From: Oscillospiraceae bacterium
GTDB taxonomy: Bacteria > Bacillota > Clostridia > Oscillospirales > Oscillospiraceae
Direction: 5' to 3'
DNA: 59,142 bases
NCBI GenBank assembly: GCA_017538965.1
Contig: JAFYHU010000061.1
Coordinates: 1 to 59,142 of the forward strand
Numbering within the stretch: position 1 is the stretch's first letter; each line of letters begins with the position of its first letter. Below are positions 1,673 to 58,633 of this stretch, in pieces. A model generated the notes under the pieces. The model did not search any database and was not told the DNA's origin. It worked only from the letters and a program-made list of their open reading frames with translations. The position numbers were made by a program, and so were the translations under genes.

Positions 1673-4612
1673 TCACCCCTTTCCCACTCCAAGCTTCGCA
1701 TCCTCCAGGATGCTCACTTCAAACTCCTCCGCATCCACCGGCCGCGAGAAGTAGTACCCCTGCACCACTGAGCAGCCCAGCCGCTTCAGCAGCCGCAGCT
1801 GCTCCTCTGTCTCGACGCCCTCGGCCACGACCGGAATCCTGAGGTTCTTCGCAATGTCGAGGATCAGGGCAACCAGCTGGATGTCCTTCTCGTTGTCCTG
1901 GATGTTCCGGATGAAGGCCCGGTCCATCTTCAGCACGTCGATCGGCATGGCGGAAAGCATGCTCAGCGAGGAATAGCCCGTGCCGAAATCGTCCATCTCC
2001 ACTTCGTAGCCCTTCCCTCTCAGCTTCTCCACCACCTGGATCACCTGCCCGGCGTTCTCCGTGTAGGCGGACTCGGTGACCTCCAGCTTCAGCGCGCCGC
2101 GCTCCAGACGGTTGTACGTCAGGATTCCGTCCAGCGTTTTTTCCAGCTCCGGATCGAACACATCCACCCGCGACAGATTCACCGAGATCGGTATCGTCAC
2201 CCCATACTTCTCCCGCCAGCGCACGATCTGCATGGCCGCTTTCTCCCACACGTACCGGTCCACCAGGCCGATCTGTCCGTTTCTCTCAAACAGCGGGATA
2301 AAGTCGTCCGGCGAGATCATCCCCAGCTCGGGGTGATTCCAGCGTACCAGTGCCTCCGCACTTACAAGCTTCGGCGGCTCGGACTGAATATCGTACTTGG
2401 GCTGATAGTAGACTTCGAACTCGTAGGATTCCAGTGCCCGGCGCAGATCGTTCAGCAGGCGCTGCTCGTAGACCTCCCGGTCGCGAACCGTCTCGTCGAA
2501 GACGATCAGGTGCTCCTTGAAGTTCCCGCGCGCCATGCTGCAGGCCGTGCGGGCCCGGTCGAACTGCATGACCGGTTCCGCCTTCTCCAGCCAGGGCATC
2601 ACGCCCATGCGCAGGCGGAGATTGGCATTCGGCGCCAGACGCTCCAGTTTTCCCTGAAGGCGGTCAAAGACGACGCCATAGTCCCGGATCTGCCGGCACC
2701 AAATGTCAAAGCGGTCCGCTCCGAAGCGCCCCGCGATGCCGCCGTTTTCGTTCGCAACGGCGAGAACCTCTTCCCCGAGTGCGCGCAGGACCTGATCGCC
2801 GAAGCTCCGTCCGTTGAGTGCGTTGACGGAATGAAACTGCTCGATGTTCATAACGATGGCGTCCATTGGGATGTCGGGGTGCTCGCGGGTAAAGCGGTCG
2901 GCATACTGGAAGAAATAATCGCGGTTATAAAGACCCGTCAGGCTGTCCTTTTCGGTTGCGGCGATCAGATTCCGGGCTCTCCGGACTGCCCGCATATTCT
3001 GGAACAGCAGGATCAGAATCACCAGCAGCACCAAACCGATCAGGACCATGACCGCAGCCAGATGGTCCTCCACAAAGTCGGAAACACTGAGTCTGGCATC
3101 TTCCGTGATGTAGTAAGAAAGCATGGCGTTGATCGTGGAGGCCGGAACCTGCCCGATGGTTTTTGCCAGAATGGAATACAGCAGGGTCTGCCCCTTGGCA
3201 ACCGCAAAACAGTAATCCATCCCGACCCCGGTGGACAGGGGAATCAGACGGTAACGGGCGCAGATTCTCGCGACATTGTTGTAGCGGTAGTTGCTGACCA
3301 GCACGCAGTCGGCCATCCCGTCCGAAACGGCTTTCAGGCAGTCTTCGGTGGTCGGATAGGTGATCTTTCGCCATTCGGGGAAGTGATCCACAAGAAAGGC
3401 TTCATAATTCGGATTGCCTTCGTTGACGGCAACGATCACGTGCTCCTTCTTGCCGAACAAGTTCTGGTCATCCTCCTTTACAATCGCGTATAGGTCCGCG
3501 CTTACCAGTGACGGCGTGATGTCCACGCCCATGGTTTCCCCTTCGTAGCTGCCGAGATTGACGGGGAAGATGCAGTCCACCTCACCGCGCTTCAGAGCGT
3601 CGAAAGCGGCGGAAGCCGTGGGGTAGGCTGTCGCCTCAAAGTCAAGATGCGCATTGGCAAAGCAGTCGGAAGCATGGTCCAGAAAATCCTTTACGGCACC
3701 GGTCAGTTCCCCGGTCGTCTCATCCGAGGCGCAGAAGGCCAGATAATTGTCCTGATAACCCACACGGATGGCACCGTGCTCCCCGATCCATTCGGTTTCC
3801 TCCGCTGTGAGAAAAGCATTGGCTCCGACCTGACGGATGTACTTTTCAAACAACTGCTGGTTATAGAAGCGGTTCTCGTCCTGAATCCGATTCATGGCTT
3901 TATTCAGATCCGCCAGCAAGTCCGGACGGCTTTTGCTGACAGCAAAATAAAAGTCGGAGGAGCCGACCTTGCTGACCGGGACGGCGACGCTGGGATCGAC
4001 AAAGGAGTCCACGGTGACATAGGCGTCCAGTTCGCCGGTCTCAAGCATATGCAGGGATTCATTCTCCGTGCAGGTTACTTCGATGATTTCGGTCTGAACG
4101 CCGGTTTTCTCGGCCCAGTCCCGATAGAAATCCGCCTGAATGCTGCTCTTGTTGACGCCGATCCGCTTTCCGTTCAGGGTGGAATAATCCGACGCCGAGA
4201 TCTCGCTGTTGCCGGGAGCGGTGAAAAGATAGTACTCCTCCGAACCCATGGCGAGATCGGGATAAAGCATATGCTCTTCCCGTTCGGGCGTGTAGGAGAC
4301 ATCACTCATCAGGTCAAGATCGCCGTTTTCCAGCATCTGAAGAAGAACAGACCAGCTCCCGCTGATATACTCGTATTTCCAGCCGGCATAGGAAGCAATC
4401 TTCTGCTGGTATTCATAAGCGTATCCGATCCGGCGCCCGGCCGAATCAATCGTGTTATAGGAGGAGTCGTACCAGCCGACGCGCACGATCTTTTCGGCTT
4501 CCTGTGCATGCGCGGGGATCGGCAGAATGAAAACAGCGGCCATGACAAGACACAGCAGACATGCCGCTGCACGTCGGTATGCCGCGGGGATGACTACGGT
4601 CGGTTTTTTCAT
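1673..4612 (-). CDS. Cyclic-di-GMP phosphodiesterase with two solute-binding-like sensors, degenerate GGDEF and EAL
   Basis: Predicted to degrade cyclic di-GMP under control of an extracytoplasmic small molecule. Seen: a signal peptide ending near AHAQ, two tandem SBP_bac_3-like modules (about residues 40-280 and 285-500), one strong membrane segment (about 517-538), a GGDEF domain whose signature is GADRF (631-635) and therefore probably not a cyclase, and an EAL domain with Glu at 753 and intact NLSR, VTES, DDFGTGYSS and AEGVET motifs, so likely active. The start at 4612 is chosen because a GGGAGG ribosome site precedes it and the signal peptide begins there; the frame stays open another 27 codons upstream. 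Its stop lies 5 nt before the ATG of the cyclase gene, implying translational coupling. Confidence 0.9.
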   Translation of the reverse strand: MKKPTVVIPAAYRRAAACLLCLVMAAVFILPIPAHAQEAEKIVRVGWYDSSYNTIDSAGRRIGYAYEYQQKIASYAGWKYEYISGSWSVLLQMLENGDLDLMSDVSYTPEREEHMLYPDLAMGSEEYYLFTAPGNSEISASDYSTLNGKRIGVNKSSIQADFYRDWAEKTGVQTEIIEVTCTENESLHMLETGELDAYVTVDSFVDPSVAVPVSKVGSSDFYFAVSKSRPDLLADLNKAMNRIQDENRFYNQQLFEKYIRQVGANAFLTAEETEWIGEHGAIRVGYQDNYLAFCASDETTGELTGAVKDFLDHASDCFANAHLDFEATAYPTASAAFDALKRGEVDCIFPVNLGSYEGETMGVDITPSLVSADLYAIVKEDDQNLFGKKEHVIVAVNEGNPNYEAFLVDHFPEWRKITYPTTEDCLKAVSDGMADCVLVSNYRYNNVARICARYRLIPLSTGVGMDYCFAVAKGQTLLYSILAKTIGQVPASTINAMLSYYITEDARLSVSDFVEDHLAAVMVLIGLVLLVILILLFQNMRAVRRARNLIAATEKDSLTGLYNRDYFFQYADRFTREHPDIPMDAIVMNIEQFHSVNALNGRSFGDQVLRALGEEVLAVANENGGIAGRFGADRFDIWCRQIRDYGVVFDRLQGKLERLAPNANLRLRMGVMPWLEKAEPVMQFDRARTACSMARGNFKEHLIVFDETVRDREVYEQRLLNDLRRALESYEFEVYYQPKYDIQSEPPKLVSAEALVRWNHPELGMISPDDFIPLFERNGQIGLVDRYVWEKAAMQIVRWREKYGVTIPISVNLSRVDVFDPELEKTLDGILTYNRLERGALKLEVTESAYTENAGQVIQVVEKLRGKGYEVEMDDFGTGYSSLSMLSAMPIDVLKMDRAFIRNIQDNEKDIQLVALILDIAKNLRIPVVAEGVETEEQLRLLKRLGCSVVQGYYFSRPVDAEEFEVSILEDAKLGVGKG

Positions 4613-4726
4613 CGGGAACCTCCCAGTCTGTACGAATAGAATCACGAAATGAGAATACTTAATAATAGCATATTTTCCGCCTGTTTTCCACATTTTTTTC
4701 CGGCCTGAAAGGAATTGCGCAAGGGA

Positions 4727-33564: not shown

Positions 33565-36201
33565 ATGGAACAGAGAAGGAAAAGCAATATCATCACGGCT
33601 GCCCTTCTGGGCGGGATTGTTGTCGCCTTCATCCTGATCGTGGGAACCGTCTGGATGGGGCAGAGCGCGAAACGGGATACGGAAGCCGCCGTGCACTCTG
33701 TCAGCCTGCTCTACCTTGACGAACTTGCCGGAAGACGGGAGCAGGTTGTGGCAGCCAATCTGCAGAACAAGATTGTCGACATGCAGACGGCGATTGACCT
33801 GATGACGGAGGAAGATCTCAGCGACCTTGAACATCTGCAGGCCTATCAGTCGAGGATGAAGAAACTGTATACCCTCGAGAAATTTGCCTTTGTCGATACG
33901 GAAGGACGTATCTATACCTCCCTTGGCATGCAGGACAACATCGACGAGTACGCGATCAACTACCGGGATATTTCCGAGCCGGAGATCTCGATCTTCAATC
34001 TGTCAAGCCCGGATAAAAAGGTGATCATTGCCATCCCGGTGAACGGAATTCCCTTTAACGGCGAAACCCTGACCGTCTGCTTCATGGAGATCGACATGGA
34101 CGAGATGCTGCAGGGCGTTTCCATGCAGTCCGGCAGCGAGGACGCCACCTTCTGCAACATCTATACGGCCGACGGCGTCGCGCTGACGAACGCGGTTCTC
34201 GGCGGTCTTGCCGAAGAGAACAATCTGCTCAAGGCCATGGAACTGGCCGAGTATGAAAAGGGATACAGCTATGAAAAACTGACGCAGGAATTCCGGGACG
34301 GCGTCCGGGGCGAGGTGTCTTTCAGCTATGACGGGGTTCAGGAGACGCTTAGCTATGTTCCGGTAAAAGGAACCGACTGGCGTCTCACCTATCTGATCCG
34401 GGAGAGCGTGATCGCGGAAAAAATCAATGAGATTTCAGAAGGCATTGTCAGACGAAGCCTGATTCAGTCGATCCTGACGGCTGCCGTGCTTGCCGGGGTG
34501 TTCCTGGTGATCTTCTCCCAGCAGAGAAAGAACGAAAGACTTGTCATTGAAAAGGAAACGGCGGAGGCAGAAAACCGGGTCAAGCAGCAGGAACTGGAAC
34601 AGCGTCTGGCCCTGCAGGAAAACCTGAAAGAGGCTTTGGAGGCTGCAGAACAGGCAAACAAGGCAAAGACGGTGTTTCTGTCCAACATGAGCCATGAAAT
34701 CCGCACGCCGATGAACGCCATCATCGGTCTGGATACGATCGCGCTGAACGATCCGGATATCTCGCAGAAGACGAGAGAGTATCTCACGGGGATCGGCGAC
34801 TCGGCGGAGCATCTGCTGAACCTGATCAACGACATTCTGGACATGTCCCGCATTGAGTCGGGACGTATGATCCTGAAAAACGAAGAGTTCTCCTTCTCCA
34901 GACTGCTGGAGTATGTCAACACCATGATCAGCGGGCAGTGTTCGGAGAAAGGCCTCGATTACCGCTGCTATATCAACGGGCAGGTTGACGACTATTATAT
35001 CGGCGACAGCATGAAGCTCCGGCAGGTGCTGATCAACATCCTCGGAAATGCCGTCAAGTTCACGCCGACCGGCGGGAAAATCGGCATGACGGTGGAGCGT
35101 ACGGCGCAGTACGGAGGAAAGTCAACCCTGAAGTTCGTCATTTCGGACACCGGCATCGGCATGAGCCGGAACTATCTGCCGCATCTTTTCGACGCCTTCA
35201 CCCAGGAAGAGGAATCGGGGTCGAGCCAGTACGGCAGTTCGGGTCTCGGCATGGCGATTACGAAGAACATTGTCGAGATGATGAACGGCAGCATCGAGGT
35301 CGAAAGCGAGAAGGGCGCAGGGTCGACCTTTACGGTCGTTCTCACCCTGATGGATTCCGACAAGCACAGGGAAGATGAGGAACACTTTGAGATTCAGCCG
35401 TCAGAGATGACGGTTCTGATCGTTGACGACGATCCGGTCGCCTGCGAACATGCCAGACTGGTGCTTGAAAAAGCCGGCATCGCTTCAGAAATTGCCATGT
35501 CGGGGGCGGAGGCCGTCAAAATGGTGGAACTTCGCCACGCGAGGCGCGAGCCCTACAACCTCATCCTCATTGACTGGAAGATGCCGGAGATGGACGGAGT
35601 GGAGACGGCGCGCCGGATTCGCGGGATTGTCGACAACGCATCCGCGATCATTATCCTGACCGCCTACAAGTGGGACGATGTGCTGGACGAGGCAATTCGG
35701 GCCGGGGTTGACAGCTTCATCGCCAAACCGCTTTTTGCGGCCAACCTTCTGGAAGAATACAAAGAGGCTGTCCGGCGGAAGAGCGCGGCAGGCAGAACGG
35801 ACAAAGAGAAAACCGACCTGGCCGGCCGGCGGATTCTCCTTGCGGAAGACGTCGAGATCAACGCGGAAATCATGAAAATGGTTCTCCAGATGCGGGAAAT
35901 CGAAACCGAAACGGCCGAAAACGGCAGAATTGCCGTTGACATGTTTGCCTCCCGTCCCGAAGGCTATTATTCCGCCGTCCTGATGGATATGCGGATGCCG
36001 GAGATGGACGGCCTGGAGGCAACGAGAACCATCCGTGCCATGAACAGGGCGGACGCCAGGACCATTCCGATCATCGCCATGACGGCCAATGCCTTCGACG
36101 AGGATGTCCAGCGCAGCCTGCAGGCGGGTCTGAACGCGCATCTCAGCAAGCCGGTCAAACCGGATGCCCTGTTTGAGACGCTGGAGAGTCTCATCAGATA
36201 A
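33565..36201 (+). CDS. Membrane hybrid sensor histidine kinase with two receiver domains
   Basis: Sensor kinase of unknown stimulus. Order: membrane segment (about residues 13-32), extracellular Cache-like domain (about 35-290), second membrane segment (about 297-316), a coiled-coil stretch rich in Glu/Lys/Ala (about 320-370), HisKA with the phosphorylated His at 377 (SNMSHEIRTPMN), HATPase with DTGIGMS and GSSGLGMAI loops, then receiver 1 (acidic pocket 621-623, phospho-acceptor D670, IDWKMPEMDG) and receiver 2 (AED, phospho-acceptor D808, MDMRMPEMDG). No HPt domain or output domain is fused, and no partner regulator is adjacent, so the phosphorelay must use a distant protein. GGAGAG lies 8 nt before the ATG. 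Confidence 0.93.
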   Translation: MEQRRKSNIITAALLGGIVVAFILIVGTVWMGQSAKRDTEAAVHSVSLLYLDELAGRREQVVAANLQNKIVDMQTAIDLMTEEDLSDLEHLQAYQSRMKKLYTLEKFAFVDTEGRIYTSLGMQDNIDEYAINYRDISEPEISIFNLSSPDKKVIIAIPVNGIPFNGETLTVCFMEIDMDEMLQGVSMQSGSEDATFCNIYTADGVALTNAVLGGLAEENNLLKAMELAEYEKGYSYEKLTQEFRDGVRGEVSFSYDGVQETLSYVPVKGTDWRLTYLIRESVIAEKINEISEGIVRRSLIQSILTAAVLAGVFLVIFSQQRKNERLVIEKETAEAENRVKQQELEQRLALQENLKEALEAAEQANKAKTVFLSNMSHEIRTPMNAIIGLDTIALNDPDISQKTREYLTGIGDSAEHLLNLINDILDMSRIESGRMILKNEEFSFSRLLEYVNTMISGQCSEKGLDYRCYINGQVDDYYIGDSMKLRQVLINILGNAVKFTPTGGKIGMTVERTAQYGGKSTLKFVISDTGIGMSRNYLPHLFDAFTQEEESGSSQYGSSGLGMAITKNIVEMMNGSIEVESEKGAGSTFTVVLTLMDSDKHREDEEHFEIQPSEMTVLIVDDDPVACEHARLVLEKAGIASEIAMSGAEAVKMVELRHARREPYNLILIDWKMPEMDGVETARRIRGIVDNASAIIILTAYKWDDVLDEAIRAGVDSFIAKPLFAANLLEEYKEAVRRKSAAGRTDKEKTDLAGRRILLAEDVEINAEIMKMVLQMREIETETAENGRIAVDMFASRPEGYYSAVLMDMRMPEMDGLEATRTIRAMNRADARTIPIIAMTANAFDEDVQRSLQAGLNAHLSKPVKPDALFETLESLIR

Positions 36202-36205
36202 CAAA

Positions 36206-36237
36206 AGACCGCAGCGGCTGAGAAGCCTGCGCGGTCT
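36206..36237 (+). other. Hairpin between the kinase and the DUF5662 gene
   Basis: AGACCGC (36206-36212) / GCGGTCT (36231-36237) with an inner GGCT-GAGA-AGCC stem. No T-run follows, so it may be an RNA-stabilising or Rho-type element rather than an intrinsic terminator. Confidence 0.55.
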
Positions 36238-36261
36238 CCTGAGAAAGGGGGAGTGACAGTC

Positions 36262-36801
36262 GTGCATCCCGTCGCGCATTTCCGAACGATTACCGAACAC
36301 CGGCATCTGGTCTGCCGGTACTGCCTGCGGCTTGGCCTGGTGTGGCAGGGCCTGACGCACGATTTGAGCAAGTATTTCCCCGAGGAGTTCTGGCGTGGCG
36401 CGAAGTACTACCAGGGGTTTCGCAGTCCGAACGACGCGGAACGGATGGAGACCGGAGTTTCCCGGGCATGGCTGCACCATAAGGGGCGCAACAAGCATCA
36501 CTTTGAATACTGGGTTGACTATATCCTGACGCCGGATCATTCGGTCTGCTATGCGGGGAACAAAATGCCGATGCGTTATGTCGCCGAGATGTTCTGCGAT
36601 CGGCTGGCAGCCTGCAGAATCTACCTGAAGGACAGATATACCGATGCGGCGGCCTATGAGTATTTCATGCGTTCGCGGGACAGAATCCCCATTCATCCCG
36701 AGACCGGCGCGGAGCTCGAAAAAATGCTCGAGGTTCTGAAAGACGAAGGGGAAGACGCTGCCTTCCGCTATGTACGCAAACGCCTGAAGGAAAGCCGTTG
36801 A
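36262..36801 (+). CDS. DUF5662 family protein (HD-like)
   Basis: Conserved protein of unknown function found in many Clostridia. The 179-residue sequence shows the family pattern: MHPVAHFRTITEHRHLV start, GLTHDLSKY, FWRGAKYYQGFRSPN, AWLHHKGRNKHHFEYW and MPMRYVAEMFCDR. The clustered His/Asp pairs (HDLSK, HHKGRNKHH) suggest a metal-binding, HD-domain-like fold, which is inference. GTG at 36262 is preferred because GGGGGAG lies 9 nt upstream and family members start MHP; GTG at 36253 is inside that site. It lies 60 bp after the kinase, so it is possibly co-transcribed. Confidence 0.8.
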   Translation: MHPVAHFRTITEHRHLVCRYCLRLGLVWQGLTHDLSKYFPEEFWRGAKYYQGFRSPNDAERMETGVSRAWLHHKGRNKHHFEYWVDYILTPDHSVCYAGNKMPMRYVAEMFCDRLAACRIYLKDRYTDAAAYEYFMRSRDRIPIHPETGAELEKMLEVLKDEGEDAAFRYVRKRLKESR

Positions 36802-36850
36802 CGGAGAAAAAGAAAAACCGCCTGACGGCGGAAGAAAACCGAATCTGCAT
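36802..36850. other. Gap downstream of the DUF5662 gene
   Basis: The 536-bp gap 36802-37337 contains no credible protein gene. Its first part holds only a short CCGCC/GGCGG inverted repeat near 36827-36836; the remainder carries the minus-strand RNA candidate, two promoters and two hairpins listed separately. Confidence 0.6.
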
Positions 36851-37137
36851 AAAAAAAGAAGTAAGCCCTGACTGCAGCATAAAACGCTCAACACAATCAG
36901 GGCTTACTTCTCTGAATTTTTCGTATCTAACATCCTGAGACCTCTCTTTCATTCAGATTCAAGTGCTGCGCTGAATCTCTCCGGACTGCCTCACGGACAG
37001 CAACATCATTTCTGCGGCTCGCGCATATCCCGTAAGAGGGACAAACTTGTGTGTGTCGGAGCTTCCGAACAAAGATTTCAGCGTTTCATCCGACCTGCTT
37101 TGCCGGATGAACGGAAGTTATGACTTCCTCGTTTCTT
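36851..37137 (-). ncRNA. Candidate structured non-coding RNA
   Basis: A minus-strand transcript is predicted from about 37137 to the T-run after the terminator stem at 36857. It has a consensus promoter just upstream and contains several short perfect hairpins: GGAAGT/ACTTCC with a 4-nt loop (37113-37128), TTCATCCG/CGGATGAA (37085-37111), TCGGA/TCCGA (37056-37068) and AGATTCA/TGAATCT (36955-36978). No reading frame in it has a ribosome site and protein-like content. It does not show the 5'-3' closing stem of 6S RNA, the SRP loop, or RNase P/tmRNA landmarks. Family unknown to me; a described class such as the raiA motif cannot be excluded. Confidence 0.6.
36857..36911 (-). terminator. Terminator of the minus-strand RNA
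   Basis: 15-bp perfect stem AGAAGTAAGCCCTGA (36857-36871) / TCAGGGCTTACTTCT (36897-36911) with a 25-nt loop. On the minus strand the stem runs straight into a T-run (complement of the A-run 36851-36857). The plus-strand tail is weaker. Confidence 0.85.
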
Positions 37138-37143
37138 GTGGTT

Positions 37144-37172
37144 ATCATACACGAAAAACAGGGGACTTGCAA
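37144..37172 (-). promoter_or_regulatory. Promoter of the minus-strand RNA
   Basis: Minus strand: TTGCAA (37167-37172), exact 17-bp spacer, TATGAT (complement of 37144-37149). No protein start lies within reach downstream. Confidence 0.7.
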
Positions 37173-37245
37173 GAGCAAGAATATACAAAAATACCAACTT
37201 GAAATTGTGGAGAATAGCAAAATTTGTGTAATTTGCAAAAAACAC

Positions 37246-37274
37246 TTGACGATTATCGGGGTCCATAGTATGAT
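37246..37274 (+). promoter_or_regulatory. Promoter for the LUD gene
   Basis: TTGACG (37246-37251), exact 17-bp spacer, TATGAT (37269-37274); predicted transcript start near 37281. Confidence 0.78.
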
Positions 37275-37284
37275 CAATAATCGG

Positions 37285-37308
37285 CGGGCGCGGCGGCGCC
37301 CGTTTTTT
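37285..37308 (+). terminator. Terminator-like hairpin at the 5' end of the LUD transcript
   Basis: 7-bp GC stem CGGGCGC (37285-37291) / GCGCCCG (37296-37302) with a GGCG loop, then six T (37303-37308). It begins only a few bases after the predicted transcription start and ends 29 bp before the LUD ATG. Confidence 0.75.
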
Positions 37309-37337
37309 GCAAAATACGGAAGGAGCCGTGAAACAAA

Positions 37338-37967
37338 ATGAACGAAAACGTGGTAAAACGGAATGATCTGCTGGCACAGAAAGTAATCAAAGGCCTGCAG
37401 TCCAGAAATATGAGCGGCTATTATGCTCATGACCGGCAGGAGGCGCTGAAGCTGGCGCTGAGCCTGATTCCGGAAGGAAGCAGCGTGACGATGGGCGGCG
37501 GCGTCAGCGTGGCGGAGATCGGGCTGAAGGATGCCGTGAAAAGCGGGAATTATCGTTTCATCGACCGCGATGAGATGGAGGACAAGCGTGCGGCCATGCT
37601 GATGGCCTATGACGCGGATGTCTTCCTTGCCGGCTGCAATGCGATGACCGAAGACGGAATTCTTATAAATATCGACGGCAATGCCAATCGGGTTTCAGCC
37701 ATCGCACAGGGACCGAAGAAGGTGGTTTTCATCGTCGGCATGAACAAGGTGTGCAGCGATGTCGACGCTGCCATGAAGCGCGCGAGAAACGTTGCGGCAC
37801 CCATCAATGCGCAGCGCTTCGGGCTTTCCACGCCCTGCGCGAAGACCGGCTCCTGCATGGACTGCAAGTCTCCGGACACCATCTGCTGCCAGTTTCTGAT
37901 CACGCGTTTCTCGCGTCATCCGGAAAGAATCCACGTAATTCTCGTCAACGACAATCTCGGCTTCTGA
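37338..37967 (+). CDS. LUD domain protein (lactate utilisation family, DUF162)
   Basis: Stand-alone member of the LutB/LutC (LUD) family; role unknown, possibly electron transfer or lactate-linked. The 209-residue protein shows MGGGVSVAEIGL, FIDRDEMEDKRAAM, VFLAGCNAMTEDGILINIDGNANR (the nucleotide- or anion-binding-like core) and a C-terminal cysteine cluster CAKTGSCMDCKSP..CC that could hold a metal or iron-sulfur centre. No lutA or lutB neighbour is present, so it is not a lut operon. AAGGAG lies 14 nt before the ATG, rather far. A promoter and terminator-like hairpin precede it. Confidence 0.87.
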   Translation: MNENVVKRNDLLAQKVIKGLQSRNMSGYYAHDRQEALKLALSLIPEGSSVTMGGGVSVAEIGLKDAVKSGNYRFIDRDEMEDKRAAMLMAYDADVFLAGCNAMTEDGILINIDGNANRVSAIAQGPKKVVFIVGMNKVCSDVDAAMKRARNVAAPINAQRFGLSTPCAKTGSCMDCKSPDTICCQFLITRFSRHPERIHVILVNDNLGF

Positions 37968-37977
37968 GACTTATAAC

Positions 37978-38009
37978 CGGAAACCGCCCCTCAGGGGCGG
38001 TTTCCGTTT
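37978..38009 (+). terminator. Terminator of the LUD gene
   Basis: 13-bp perfect stem CGGAAACCGCCCC (37978-37990) / GGGGCGGTTTCCG (37994-38006), 3-nt loop, TTT tail. Confidence 0.88.
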
Positions 38010-38151: not shown

Positions 38152-38237
38152 GGTGCCGGTGGTGGGACTCGAACCCACACGGGGGATTAGCCCAACGGAT
38201 TTTGAGTCCGTCACGTCTACCATTCCATCACACCGGC
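38151..38237 (-). tRNA. tRNA-Leu (anticodon CAA)
   Basis: 87 nt with encoded CCA. Acceptor GCCGGTG / CACCGGC, long variable arm as in class II tRNAs, anticodon loop CTCAAAA giving CAA, T-loop TTCGAGT. Reads UUG. Its 3' end is duplicated about 140 bp away. Confidence 0.95.
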
Positions 38238-38247
38238 GTGTGAAGAC

Positions 38248-38276
38248 AGTATAGACGATGTCCTCAGAAAAAGCAA
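38248..38276 (-). promoter_or_regulatory. Promoter for tRNA-Leu
   Basis: Minus strand: TTGCTT (complement of 38271-38276), 17-bp spacer, TATACT (complement of 38248-38253). Confidence 0.7.
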
Positions 38277-38320
38277 GAAAGAATTCTCTCAGAAGCGATA
38301 TGAAAACAGAAAAAATGTGG

Positions 38321-38349
38321 TTGACAAACCGCGGCTTTTTTGCTAATAT
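38321..38349 (+). promoter_or_regulatory. Promoter for tRNA-Thr and tRNA-Tyr
   Basis: TTGACA (38321-38326), 17-bp spacer, TAATAT (38344-38349), 39 bp before tRNA-Thr. Confidence 0.8.
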
Positions 38350-38387
38350 AACCGGGCGGCTGGATGGTGGCTGCTGTCCCGGAGTAT

Positions 38388-38463
38388 GCTGGTATAGCTC
38401 AGTCGGTAGAGCAGCTGATTTGTAATCAGCAGGTCGGGGGTTCGAGTCCGTCTACCAGCTCCA
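38388..38463 (+). tRNA. tRNA-Thr (anticodon TGT)
   Basis: 76 nt with encoded CCA. Acceptor GCTGGTA / TACCAGC, D-arm GCTCAGTCGGTAGAGC, anticodon stem GCTGA/TCAGC with loop TTTGTAA giving TGT, T-loop TTCGAGT. Confidence 0.96.
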
Positions 38464-38480
38464 TAAATCCATAACAATTT

Positions 38481-38565
38481 GGGGGAATTCCCGAGTGGCC
38501 AAAGGGGACAGACTGTAAATCTGCTGGCGATGCCTTCGGTGGTTCGAATCCACCTTCCCCCACCA
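38481..38565 (+). tRNA. tRNA-Tyr (anticodon GTA)
   Basis: 85 nt with encoded CCA. Acceptor GGGGGAA / TTCCCCC, long variable arm, anticodon GTA in AGACTGTAAATCT, T-loop TTCGAAT. It follows tRNA-Thr by 17 bp, so both come from one transcript. Confidence 0.96.
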
Positions 38566-39778: not shown

Positions 39779-40077
39779 GCGTGTGTGCGCAGGCGCATAC
39801 GCATGCGTTGAAGCGGGAGATTGCTCGCAGGGCGAGGTAACTTCCGTGGAGTATGTCCGGTACCGGTCGATCCGGTACGCAATCGGGCGGCTGAAGCCTT
39901 TCATTCCACGCGTATATCGCGCGGACAGGTGGCAGACCGGCTGGAATGCCGGTTTGTTTTTCGGACGCGGTCTGATACGCACGGCTGTGTGTATGAAATC
40001 GGCTTCATCCGTACGCATCCTTTAATAAGGCGGTGCCCAATGCCGCCGAAAAGAACGTACGAAAAGGAGTAAACCAA
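39779..40077 (+). promoter_or_regulatory. Structured leader of the S10 operon with attenuator-like hairpin
   Basis: An approximately 300-nt untranslated leader. It contains GTACCGG/CCGGTAC (39860-39878) and, at 39933-39956, a 9-bp stem around ACCGGC/GCCGGT followed by five T, which looks like an intrinsic terminator ahead of rpsJ. S10 operons of gamma-proteobacteria are regulated at such a leader by L4; for this organism that is inference. Confidence 0.65.
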
Positions 40078-40395
40078 ATGGCAAACACCAGCAAAAACAT
40101 GATCCGCATCCGTCTCAAGGCCTATGATCACCAGCTGATCGACAAGGCCGCCGAAACCATCGTCGAGGCTGCCAAGCGCACCGACGCGAAAGTTTCGGGC
40201 CCCATCCCTCTGCCCACCAAGACCGAGATCGTCACGATTCTCCGTGCCGTTCATAAGTATAAGGACAGTCGCGAACAGTTTGAGCGCCGCACCCACAAGC
40301 GGCTGATCGACATCATGAGCCCCACCCAGAAGACAGTGGAAGCTCTGATGAGTGTGGAAGTCCCCGCCGGCGTCGAGATCGAGATCAAGCTCTGA
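40078..40395 (+). CDS. rpsJ: 30S ribosomal protein S10
   Basis: Small-subunit head protein; as NusE it also takes part in antitermination with NusB. The 105-residue sequence has [30 protein letters not shown] and [12 protein letters not shown], all typical. AAGGAG lies 9 nt before the ATG; a further 15 upstream in-frame codons lack support. First gene of the ribosomal cluster, behind a long structured leader. Confidence 0.97.
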
Positions 40396-58408: not shown

Positions 58409-58428
58409 GTCCACAAATTGAATCGCTT

Positions 58429-58592
58429 GAGATAGAGGTGCGGTGTTCATCAGTAGCGTTCGGTAAAGCCAGGCAGCTGCCGGACGGGAAAGGGACCGCC
58501 GCCGAAGAATCGGACGGGTGCCTGCCCGTAAGTTTCTGGACTGTATGAAAACATCATACAGGCTGTCACAAAACTTTGTGGAGCGCTATCGA
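58429..58592 (+). promoter_or_regulatory. Lysine riboswitch (L box)
   Basis: Aptamer that binds L-lysine and turns off downstream expression. Conserved landmarks are in order: GATAGAGGTGCG (58431), GGGAAAGGGACCGCCGCCGAAG (about 58477-58498), GGGTGCCTGCCCG, TTCTGGACTGT with a GAAAAC loop (about 58530-58555), GGCTGTCA, and GGAGCGCTATC closing P1 (GATAG 58431-58435 / CTATC 58586-58590). A terminator lies downstream, as in transcriptional L boxes. Confidence 0.92.
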
Positions 58593-58633
58593 TGTTTACC
58601 GGACCGGCATCAGCCGAAACCGAGTTTCCATGG

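Follow-up and report, generated by a model that had tools for sequence, protein, structure and literature searches.

A candidate RNA gene with conserved micro-ORFs and a covarying 5′ domain from Clostridia

Leader-peptide attenuators such as the cmlA and ermC leaders place a very short ORF next to a terminator hairpin, and the cmlA leader peptide is MSTSKNADK. The small proteins of dual-function sRNAs include SR1P, of about 39 aa, and SgrT, of about 43 aa. The dual-function sRNAs SR1/SR1P of Bacillus subtilis, SgrS/SgrT and VcdRP each join a regulatory RNA to a short ORF, and VcdP of VcdRP has 29 aa. The raiA motif (ModT), OLE and ROOL are structured Bacillota RNAs of unsettled function. The sORF and uORF categories of PMC6429828 and PMC11109978 have a conserved start and stop and often a terminator, and in PMC6429828 they are motifs without structure beyond the terminator.

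We analyzed a 59,142-nt contig of an Oscillospiraceae bacterium (JAFYHU010000061.1, hereafter the window), where a reading of the minus strand at 36851-37172 finds a promoter, hairpins and a terminator. The nearest known kind appears to be the dual-function sRNA, with base pairing being a putative feature here. As in such sRNAs, the element appears to form an independent transcription unit, judged from sequence alone by its own promoter and terminator and the lack of a conserved downstream neighbor. However, the ORFs of dual-function sRNAs are longer, whereas the present one, of 8-9 codons, runs into the terminator stem, and in many members a tiny ORF is found at the other end. Compared with the raiA motif (ModT), OLE and ROOL, the RNA is ~300 nt long, contains conserved micro-ORFs and has no Rfam match. 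The very short ORF beside a terminator hairpin recalls the cmlA and ermC leaders, and its product, MLDTKNSEK, is a little like MSTSKNADK, although a nine-residue likeness proves nothing; unlike attenuator leaders, the RNA has no conserved downstream gene. It shares the conserved start and stop of the sORF and uORF categories and, unlike those of PMC6429828, it includes, in the window subclade, a domain of several covarying stems.

The explanation we favor, to which we give an even chance, is a stand-alone gene for a ~300-nt RNA that acts in trans as a ribosome-engaged, dual-function regulator. Comparison among relatives supports the predicted promoter, the fold within the subclade, the reading frame and the overlap of stop codon and terminator, and we infer a function as a ribosome-engaged regulatory RNA.

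The locus, its transcription signals and known RNA families

The RNA sits in a 536-bp gap, as the initial annotation had stated, between the end of a DUF5662 ORF at 36801 and the start of a LUD ORF at 37338. The promoter described there is likewise present on the minus strand (37144-37172), with a -35 element TTGCAA (37172-37167), a 17-nt spacer and a -10 element TATGAT (37149-37144). Alignment of promoter regions from relatives gives a TGnTATATTATAG-like -10 element. Promoter-like sites are only mildly enriched in positions 36000-38000 (4, against a shuffle mean of 1.4). Between promoter and T-run we predict a transcript of ~290 nt with a putative start site (36851-37139, minus strand). The proposed hairpin-rich character held up: several hairpins were found, and the 290-nt transcript folds to -105.9 kcal/mol versus -79.8 (sd 5.2) for shuffles (z -5.1), with 0 of 200 shuffles folding as well.

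An intrinsic terminator is predicted at 36851-36913 (minus strand) from the fold and from covariance model R1, described below. A stem followed by a T-run had been correctly noticed, whereas the length of 15 bp given for the stem was too short: the hairpin has 26 predicted pairs, its 5′ arm starts at 36913, and the T-run spans 36857-36851. In the window copy and in model R1, the 5′ arm takes in the stop codon (36906-36904) of the 3′ micro-ORF (ORF2), together with its last codons. In one copy from a Candidatus Scatomorpha MAG (L060), with ORF2 near 4683 on the minus strand and the peptide MLDIKNHGI, a clear terminator is absent, and this copy may be decaying or altered.

Promoter alignments read by eye contain two further upstream boxes on the minus strand. 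Box A (CACAATTT, 37202-37209) is CACAAnTT-like in many relatives. Box B (TTTTTGTATA, 37182-37191), a candidate regulator site, is TTTTGTACA-like in many relatives and palindromic, TTTTGTACAAAA, in a few. Both boxes, the -35 and the -10 can be aligned across many copies, and a pattern of box B, TTG and TATAnTATA occurs in 52 of 99 copies, compared with a mean of 0.7 and a maximum of 3 in mononucleotide shuffles. A search of the own genome for a box B regulon returned 16 matches versus 26 in a reversed control; it says little because the pattern used a gap of 9 nt and both own copies have 8. A promoter-like TTGACG-N17-TATGAT (37246-37274, plus strand; 10/12) precedes the LUD gene and is divergent to the promoter of the RNA.

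The Rfam scan proposed in the initial annotation was run with Rfam 15 on the whole window and on 36600-37400 at E<=10, and gave only scores far below threshold over the RNA. The annotation had seen no hallmarks of 6S, SRP, RNase P or tmRNA; consistent with this, covariance models for 6S RNA, SRP RNA and RNase P RNA gave no match at E<=10 on 36600-37400, and no tmRNA family appeared in the scans of the window and of 36600-37400. Across 20 loci, made up of that of the window and 19 more, no family exceeded its gathering score over the RNA; the RNA region of L113 matched EGFOA-assoc-1 at 20.6 bits, where 224.5 are needed. The above-threshold matches in those loci (tRNA, T-box, Gut-1) fall outside the RNA. 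The Gut-1 RNA, above its gathering score, lies at 2144-2217 (plus strand) of L124; this locus belongs to a different family of the order, and its ORF2 block is ~550 bases away. An open-literature search that included passages of PMC8040213, PMC6429828 and PMC11109978 returned no recognizable account of the RNA, and three ORF2 peptide strings were absent from the open full texts searched. An earlier listing among the 3161 supplementary candidates of PMC8040213 is possible. The view of the locus as an unrecognized RNA gene thus stands as regards structure and the lack of an Rfam family; the presence of ORF2 overturns its non-coding part.

The micro-ORF at the 3′ end and its distribution

The initial annotation found no plausible coding frame and so missed ORF2 (36904-36933, minus strand), a micro-ORF of 9 codons and a stop encoding MLDTKNSEK, which is predicted from alignments and from frame and substitution tests. 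Upstream of it is a Shine-Dalgarno-like GAAAGAGAGG (36941-36950, minus strand) that is nearly invariant in aligned copies. The window copy (36950-36904) reads GAAAGAGAGG, 7 bases, then ATG TTA GAT ACG AAA AAT TCA GAG AAG TAA; aligned relatives have GAAAGAGAGG, 7-11 bases, ATG, 7-8 more codons and a stop. A second copy, at a different location in the own genome, is 94% identical over the 3′ block.

The length of ORF2 is tightly kept, with a stop after 8 or 9 codons in all 56 of 56 distinct copies. Among 100 copies retained only if the ORF had 7-16 codons, a filter that biases length counts, 93 have 9 codons, 5 have 8, one has 11 and one has 15; their stop codons are TAA (56), TGA (30) and TAG (14). 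A count with no length filter finds the frame kept in 75 of 77 same-strand R1 matches (72 loci), from 80 matches with 3 on the reverse strand omitted and with near-duplicates and R1 training members included. The exceptions are one L116 copy, which is frameshifted, and L134, which has no stop. In five of the 75 frame-keepers the ATG is missing from its usual place, and an in-frame ATG stands one codon further upstream in each. L112 has an intact ORF2, with its first ATG located upstream of it. Parts of codons 1-4 were prescribed by the pattern with which the first copies were chosen; the model matches in the genus, order and class were not chosen in this way.

In 100 unique 9-codon blocks, Leu2, Asp3 and Lys5 are invariant (100/100) and the last residue is Lys in 87. 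Leu2 is encoded by all six codons, Lys5 by AAG (83) or AAA (17), and Asp3 by GAT only. Single-base changes counted on a minimum spanning tree over codons 2-5 are 41 synonymous to 20 non-synonymous, versus 4:52 and 34:53 in the other frames. Over codons 2-9 the counts are 72:64, versus 14:119 and 47:130, and this lower ratio indicates that the later residues of ORF2 are looser. Comparison of these sequences thus places the ORF2 reading frame under selection, and its translation is predicted. Folding predictions are less uniform: the predicted openness of the Shine-Dalgarno-like sequence exceeds that of the 5′ domain in 41 of 46 copies, though not in that of the window (0.31 versus 0.37), and the start codon is predicted to be no more open on average (mean 0.40 versus 0.43 for the 5′ domain).

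This pattern of substitution bears on a classical dual-function sRNA, which would base-pair with mRNAs in trans and separately produce a bioactive 9-residue micropeptide, the fold serving mainly as a scaffold. Residues 2, 3 and 5 being kept while their codons vary (GAT excepted) is what such a peptide would predict, and the stand-alone gene without conserved neighbors also agrees with it. However, 55 distinct peptides occur among 100 copies, the sequence varying beyond Met-Leu-Asp-x-Lys and the usual last Lys, and the constant GAT, never GAC, hints at a constraint on the RNA as well. We regard this explanation as possible and rather doubtful.

To map the wider family we built R1 from the 3′ block of 52 of 56 copies (L002, L028, L060 and L074 were left out). 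One search for copies gave 38 loci, of which 9 were long ORFs, considered chance matches, and were discarded; among the remaining 29, 4 repeated loci already in the set. By DNA search, the last ~110 bases are conserved in 29 of 60 genomes (29/37 of the own genus, 0/23 of others). R1 reached further, with E-values that are rough for R1 and for the second model, R2, owing to short calibration: 93 of 102 genomes of the own genus matched, as did 47 of 295 in the order at E<=0.01 (44 at E<=0.001, in 11 families). In the class, 20 of 391 genomes matched at E<=0.001, namely the own genome, 17 strong and 2 weak, the strong matches falling in seven families outside the order. A draw of 398 genomes from the phylum, which also held relatives without the RNA, gave the own genome only (0/397 others). 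Most of the order and class genomes drawn have no R1 match, and these absences are soft because genome completeness varies. The retained relatives with names are MAGs titled mostly Oscillospiraceae, Ruminococcaceae, Lachnospiraceae or Clostridia. By comparison, the RNA family is spread over many families of one class, Clostridia by MAG titles, and the ORF2 block is its most widely conserved part. Positive genomes have 1-6 R1 matches, some in tandem; at L080, L081, L082, L115 and L116 tandem RNA copies are 460-900 bases apart.

The 5′ domain and its tiny ORFs

Upstream of ORF2, the window copy is predicted to fold into a domain of several stems, all on the minus strand. The fold and the window-subclade alignments give a 6-bp hairpin, P1 (37113-37128), at the 5′ end. 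P2 (37085-37111), a 10-bp stem-loop, covaries in the window subclade, where 8 of 9 pairs changed on both sides. The rest of the domain (36969-37083) is closed by a long-range stem, P3, in which 37083-37077 pair with 36975-36969, as supported by the fold, by covariation (two-sided changes in 5 of 7 pairs in the window subclade) and by model R2. Within the P3 domain, covariation alignments give a hairpin with CUUA in its loop, P5 (37028-37041), and covariation also gives a short hairpin, P6 (37014-37024), with weaker support: 3 of 3 pairs are two-sided by RNAalifold, versus 0 of 3 in the slightly different register of the drawn structure.

The conservation of hairpins in relatives, on which the initial annotation had made its reading depend, is borne out by compensatory changes in the window subclade: RNAalifold on 16 sequences predicts 18 pairs, 15 of them changed on both sides. 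An earlier, loose alignment of 18 sequences, 16 of which were then retained, had given almost nothing. We also drew a 36-pair structure from a single member, L057, a choice that favors it over slid versions; 82.8% of its cells are paired, compared with 37-41% when slid. Eighteen of its pairs have two-sided changes, its covariation score was matched by 0 of 500 shuffles, and of its inner helices, numbers 3 to 6 and 8 are weak. By these alignments, relatives in the window subclade keep stems of the 5′ domain through compensatory change. A coding gene with homologs on this strand had been expected to count against an RNA gene; such a gene is half of what we find, as by comparison the element is coding and structured at once.

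Model R2 covers the 5′ domain and does not overlap R1. It gave 47 matches in 37 of the 102 genus genomes (training members included), 45 of which sit 5-21 nt upstream of a same-strand R1 match; of the other two, one lies at the end of a contig and the second is weak and unlinked. Its reach is short (at E<=1, a search of 88 further loci gave 25 matches), so a common fold is supported within the window subclade and not for distant members. A layout does seem to recur at class level in 11 sequences read by eye, one of them incomplete: an ORF at the 5′ end, hairpins, a closing stem immediately before the Shine-Dalgarno-like sequence, and a P5-like hairpin, UUCUC-nnUA-GAGAA.

Outside the window subclade, the RNA often opens with AGAAAGGGUGAUACC or AGAAAGAGAGGUACAGUCC, followed by AUG, usually two codons and a stop. 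This ORF1, usually of three codons, was read by eye or by regular expression in 15 of 15 class-level members (L135-L148 and L176; L177 and L178 were left out). A stricter pattern finds it in 43 of 100 copies, and it is present in 22 of 52 promoter-anchored copies versus 4.4 in shuffles (maximum 9). Its residues differ between members (MRK, MEE, MY, MRN, MKI, MAN, MKS, MRI, MYR, MYK, MFR, MKK). ORF1 is doubled in L123, and L147 has three tandem MFR ORFs, each with its own Shine-Dalgarno-like sequence and with stops TAA, TAA and TAG, 45-46 bases apart. This triplet, ~150 bases upstream of ORF2 (minus strand), runs straight to ORF2 and the large 5′ domain is absent; two other genomes of the family of L147 have the RNA, and the one member read is the long form. 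A frame that is kept while residues vary and the unit is repeated points to translation itself rather than the peptide. No ORF1 was seen in the window copy, where hairpin P1 occupies that place, and the window subclade is without it. Since the window subclade has no ORF1 and L147 no large domain, the ORF2 block alone is common to all.

That the ORF2 block is the sole common part, retained by L147 without the large domain, could mean that only the micropeptide matters and that the RNA is simply a small mRNA whose 5′ untranslated region is structured. We consider this improbable, as the 5′ domain covaries and is linked to the ORF2 block in the genus, and the ORF1 frame is kept while its residues vary.

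Genomic context and possible function

The stop codon lies within the terminator stem, as one would expect if the hairpin were kept from forming by a ribosome that terminates there. This is the arrangement of a leader-peptide attenuator, where translation of the micro-ORF would block the terminator and let polymerase read into a downstream gene. The genes downstream argue against this. With ORFs called by length only, the nearest downstream ORF in 94 copies shares the strand of the RNA in 51 cases and lies opposite to it in 43, and the largest shared downstream family comprises 2 of 94; the gene that follows the window copy is convergent to it. We therefore rejected the attenuator, which is very unlikely in the absence of a conserved same-direction gene. 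Upstream, the largest neighbor family comprises 4 of 89 copies (ORFs again by length only). Without a conserved downstream neighbor, the RNA appears to be an independent gene and not a leader.

The 1-6 matches per positive genome, the tandem copies and neighbors that differ between species might suggest a small mobile or repeat element and not a gene, a reading made most improbable by the conserved promoter, frame and fold, by neighbors common to some close species, and by the lack of any match of the window copy to phage and plasmid records. Two viral-contig matches to one pattern were dismissed as chance, both being long ORFs.

Under the explanation we favor, a stand-alone regulator engaged by ribosomes, the role in trans is suggested by the absence of conserved neighbors. 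Ribosomes on ORF1 and ORF2 would cover the two ends of the RNA, and translation of these micro-ORFs may set its folding, lifetime or release. With a ribosome terminating at ORF2, the 5′ arm of the terminator stem would be covered, as would the 5′ end with a ribosome on ORF1, so that translation could protect or remodel the RNA. As for the ORF2 peptide, it may be either a by-product or a second product. A more specific and speculative version, which we hold only tentatively, is a new kind of ribosome-gated RNA: the tiny, mostly three-codon ORFs at the 5′ end, in one, two or three copies and with peptides that hardly matter, and the nine-codon ORF that overlaps the terminator would bring ribosomes to both ends of an RNA acting in trans, whose structure or lifetime would be set directly by the supply of initiating ribosomes, making it a translation-capacity sensor of Clostridia.

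To our knowledge, the small-RNA biology of gut and rumen Clostridia has been little charted. If our reading is right, it would give many of these bacteria a further RNA family. The family combines a covarying structure with ORFs that are among the shortest conserved ones, and coding and non-coding scans could each discard it. If translation gates the RNA, it would offer a compact and testable means for an RNA to read ribosome supply.

Other features surround the locus in the window. A hybrid histidine kinase with receiver domains (33565-36201, plus strand) is encoded upstream of the DUF5662 gene. Three tRNA genes (38154-38562; two on the plus strand, one on the minus) lie between the LUD gene and an acyltransferase gene. 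An S10-Clostridia ribosomal protein leader (39800-39870, plus strand) precedes the ORF at 40033-40395, which presumably encodes a protein resembling ribosomal protein S10, and a lysine riboswitch (58425-58596, plus strand; 93.4 bits) is located close to the window end.
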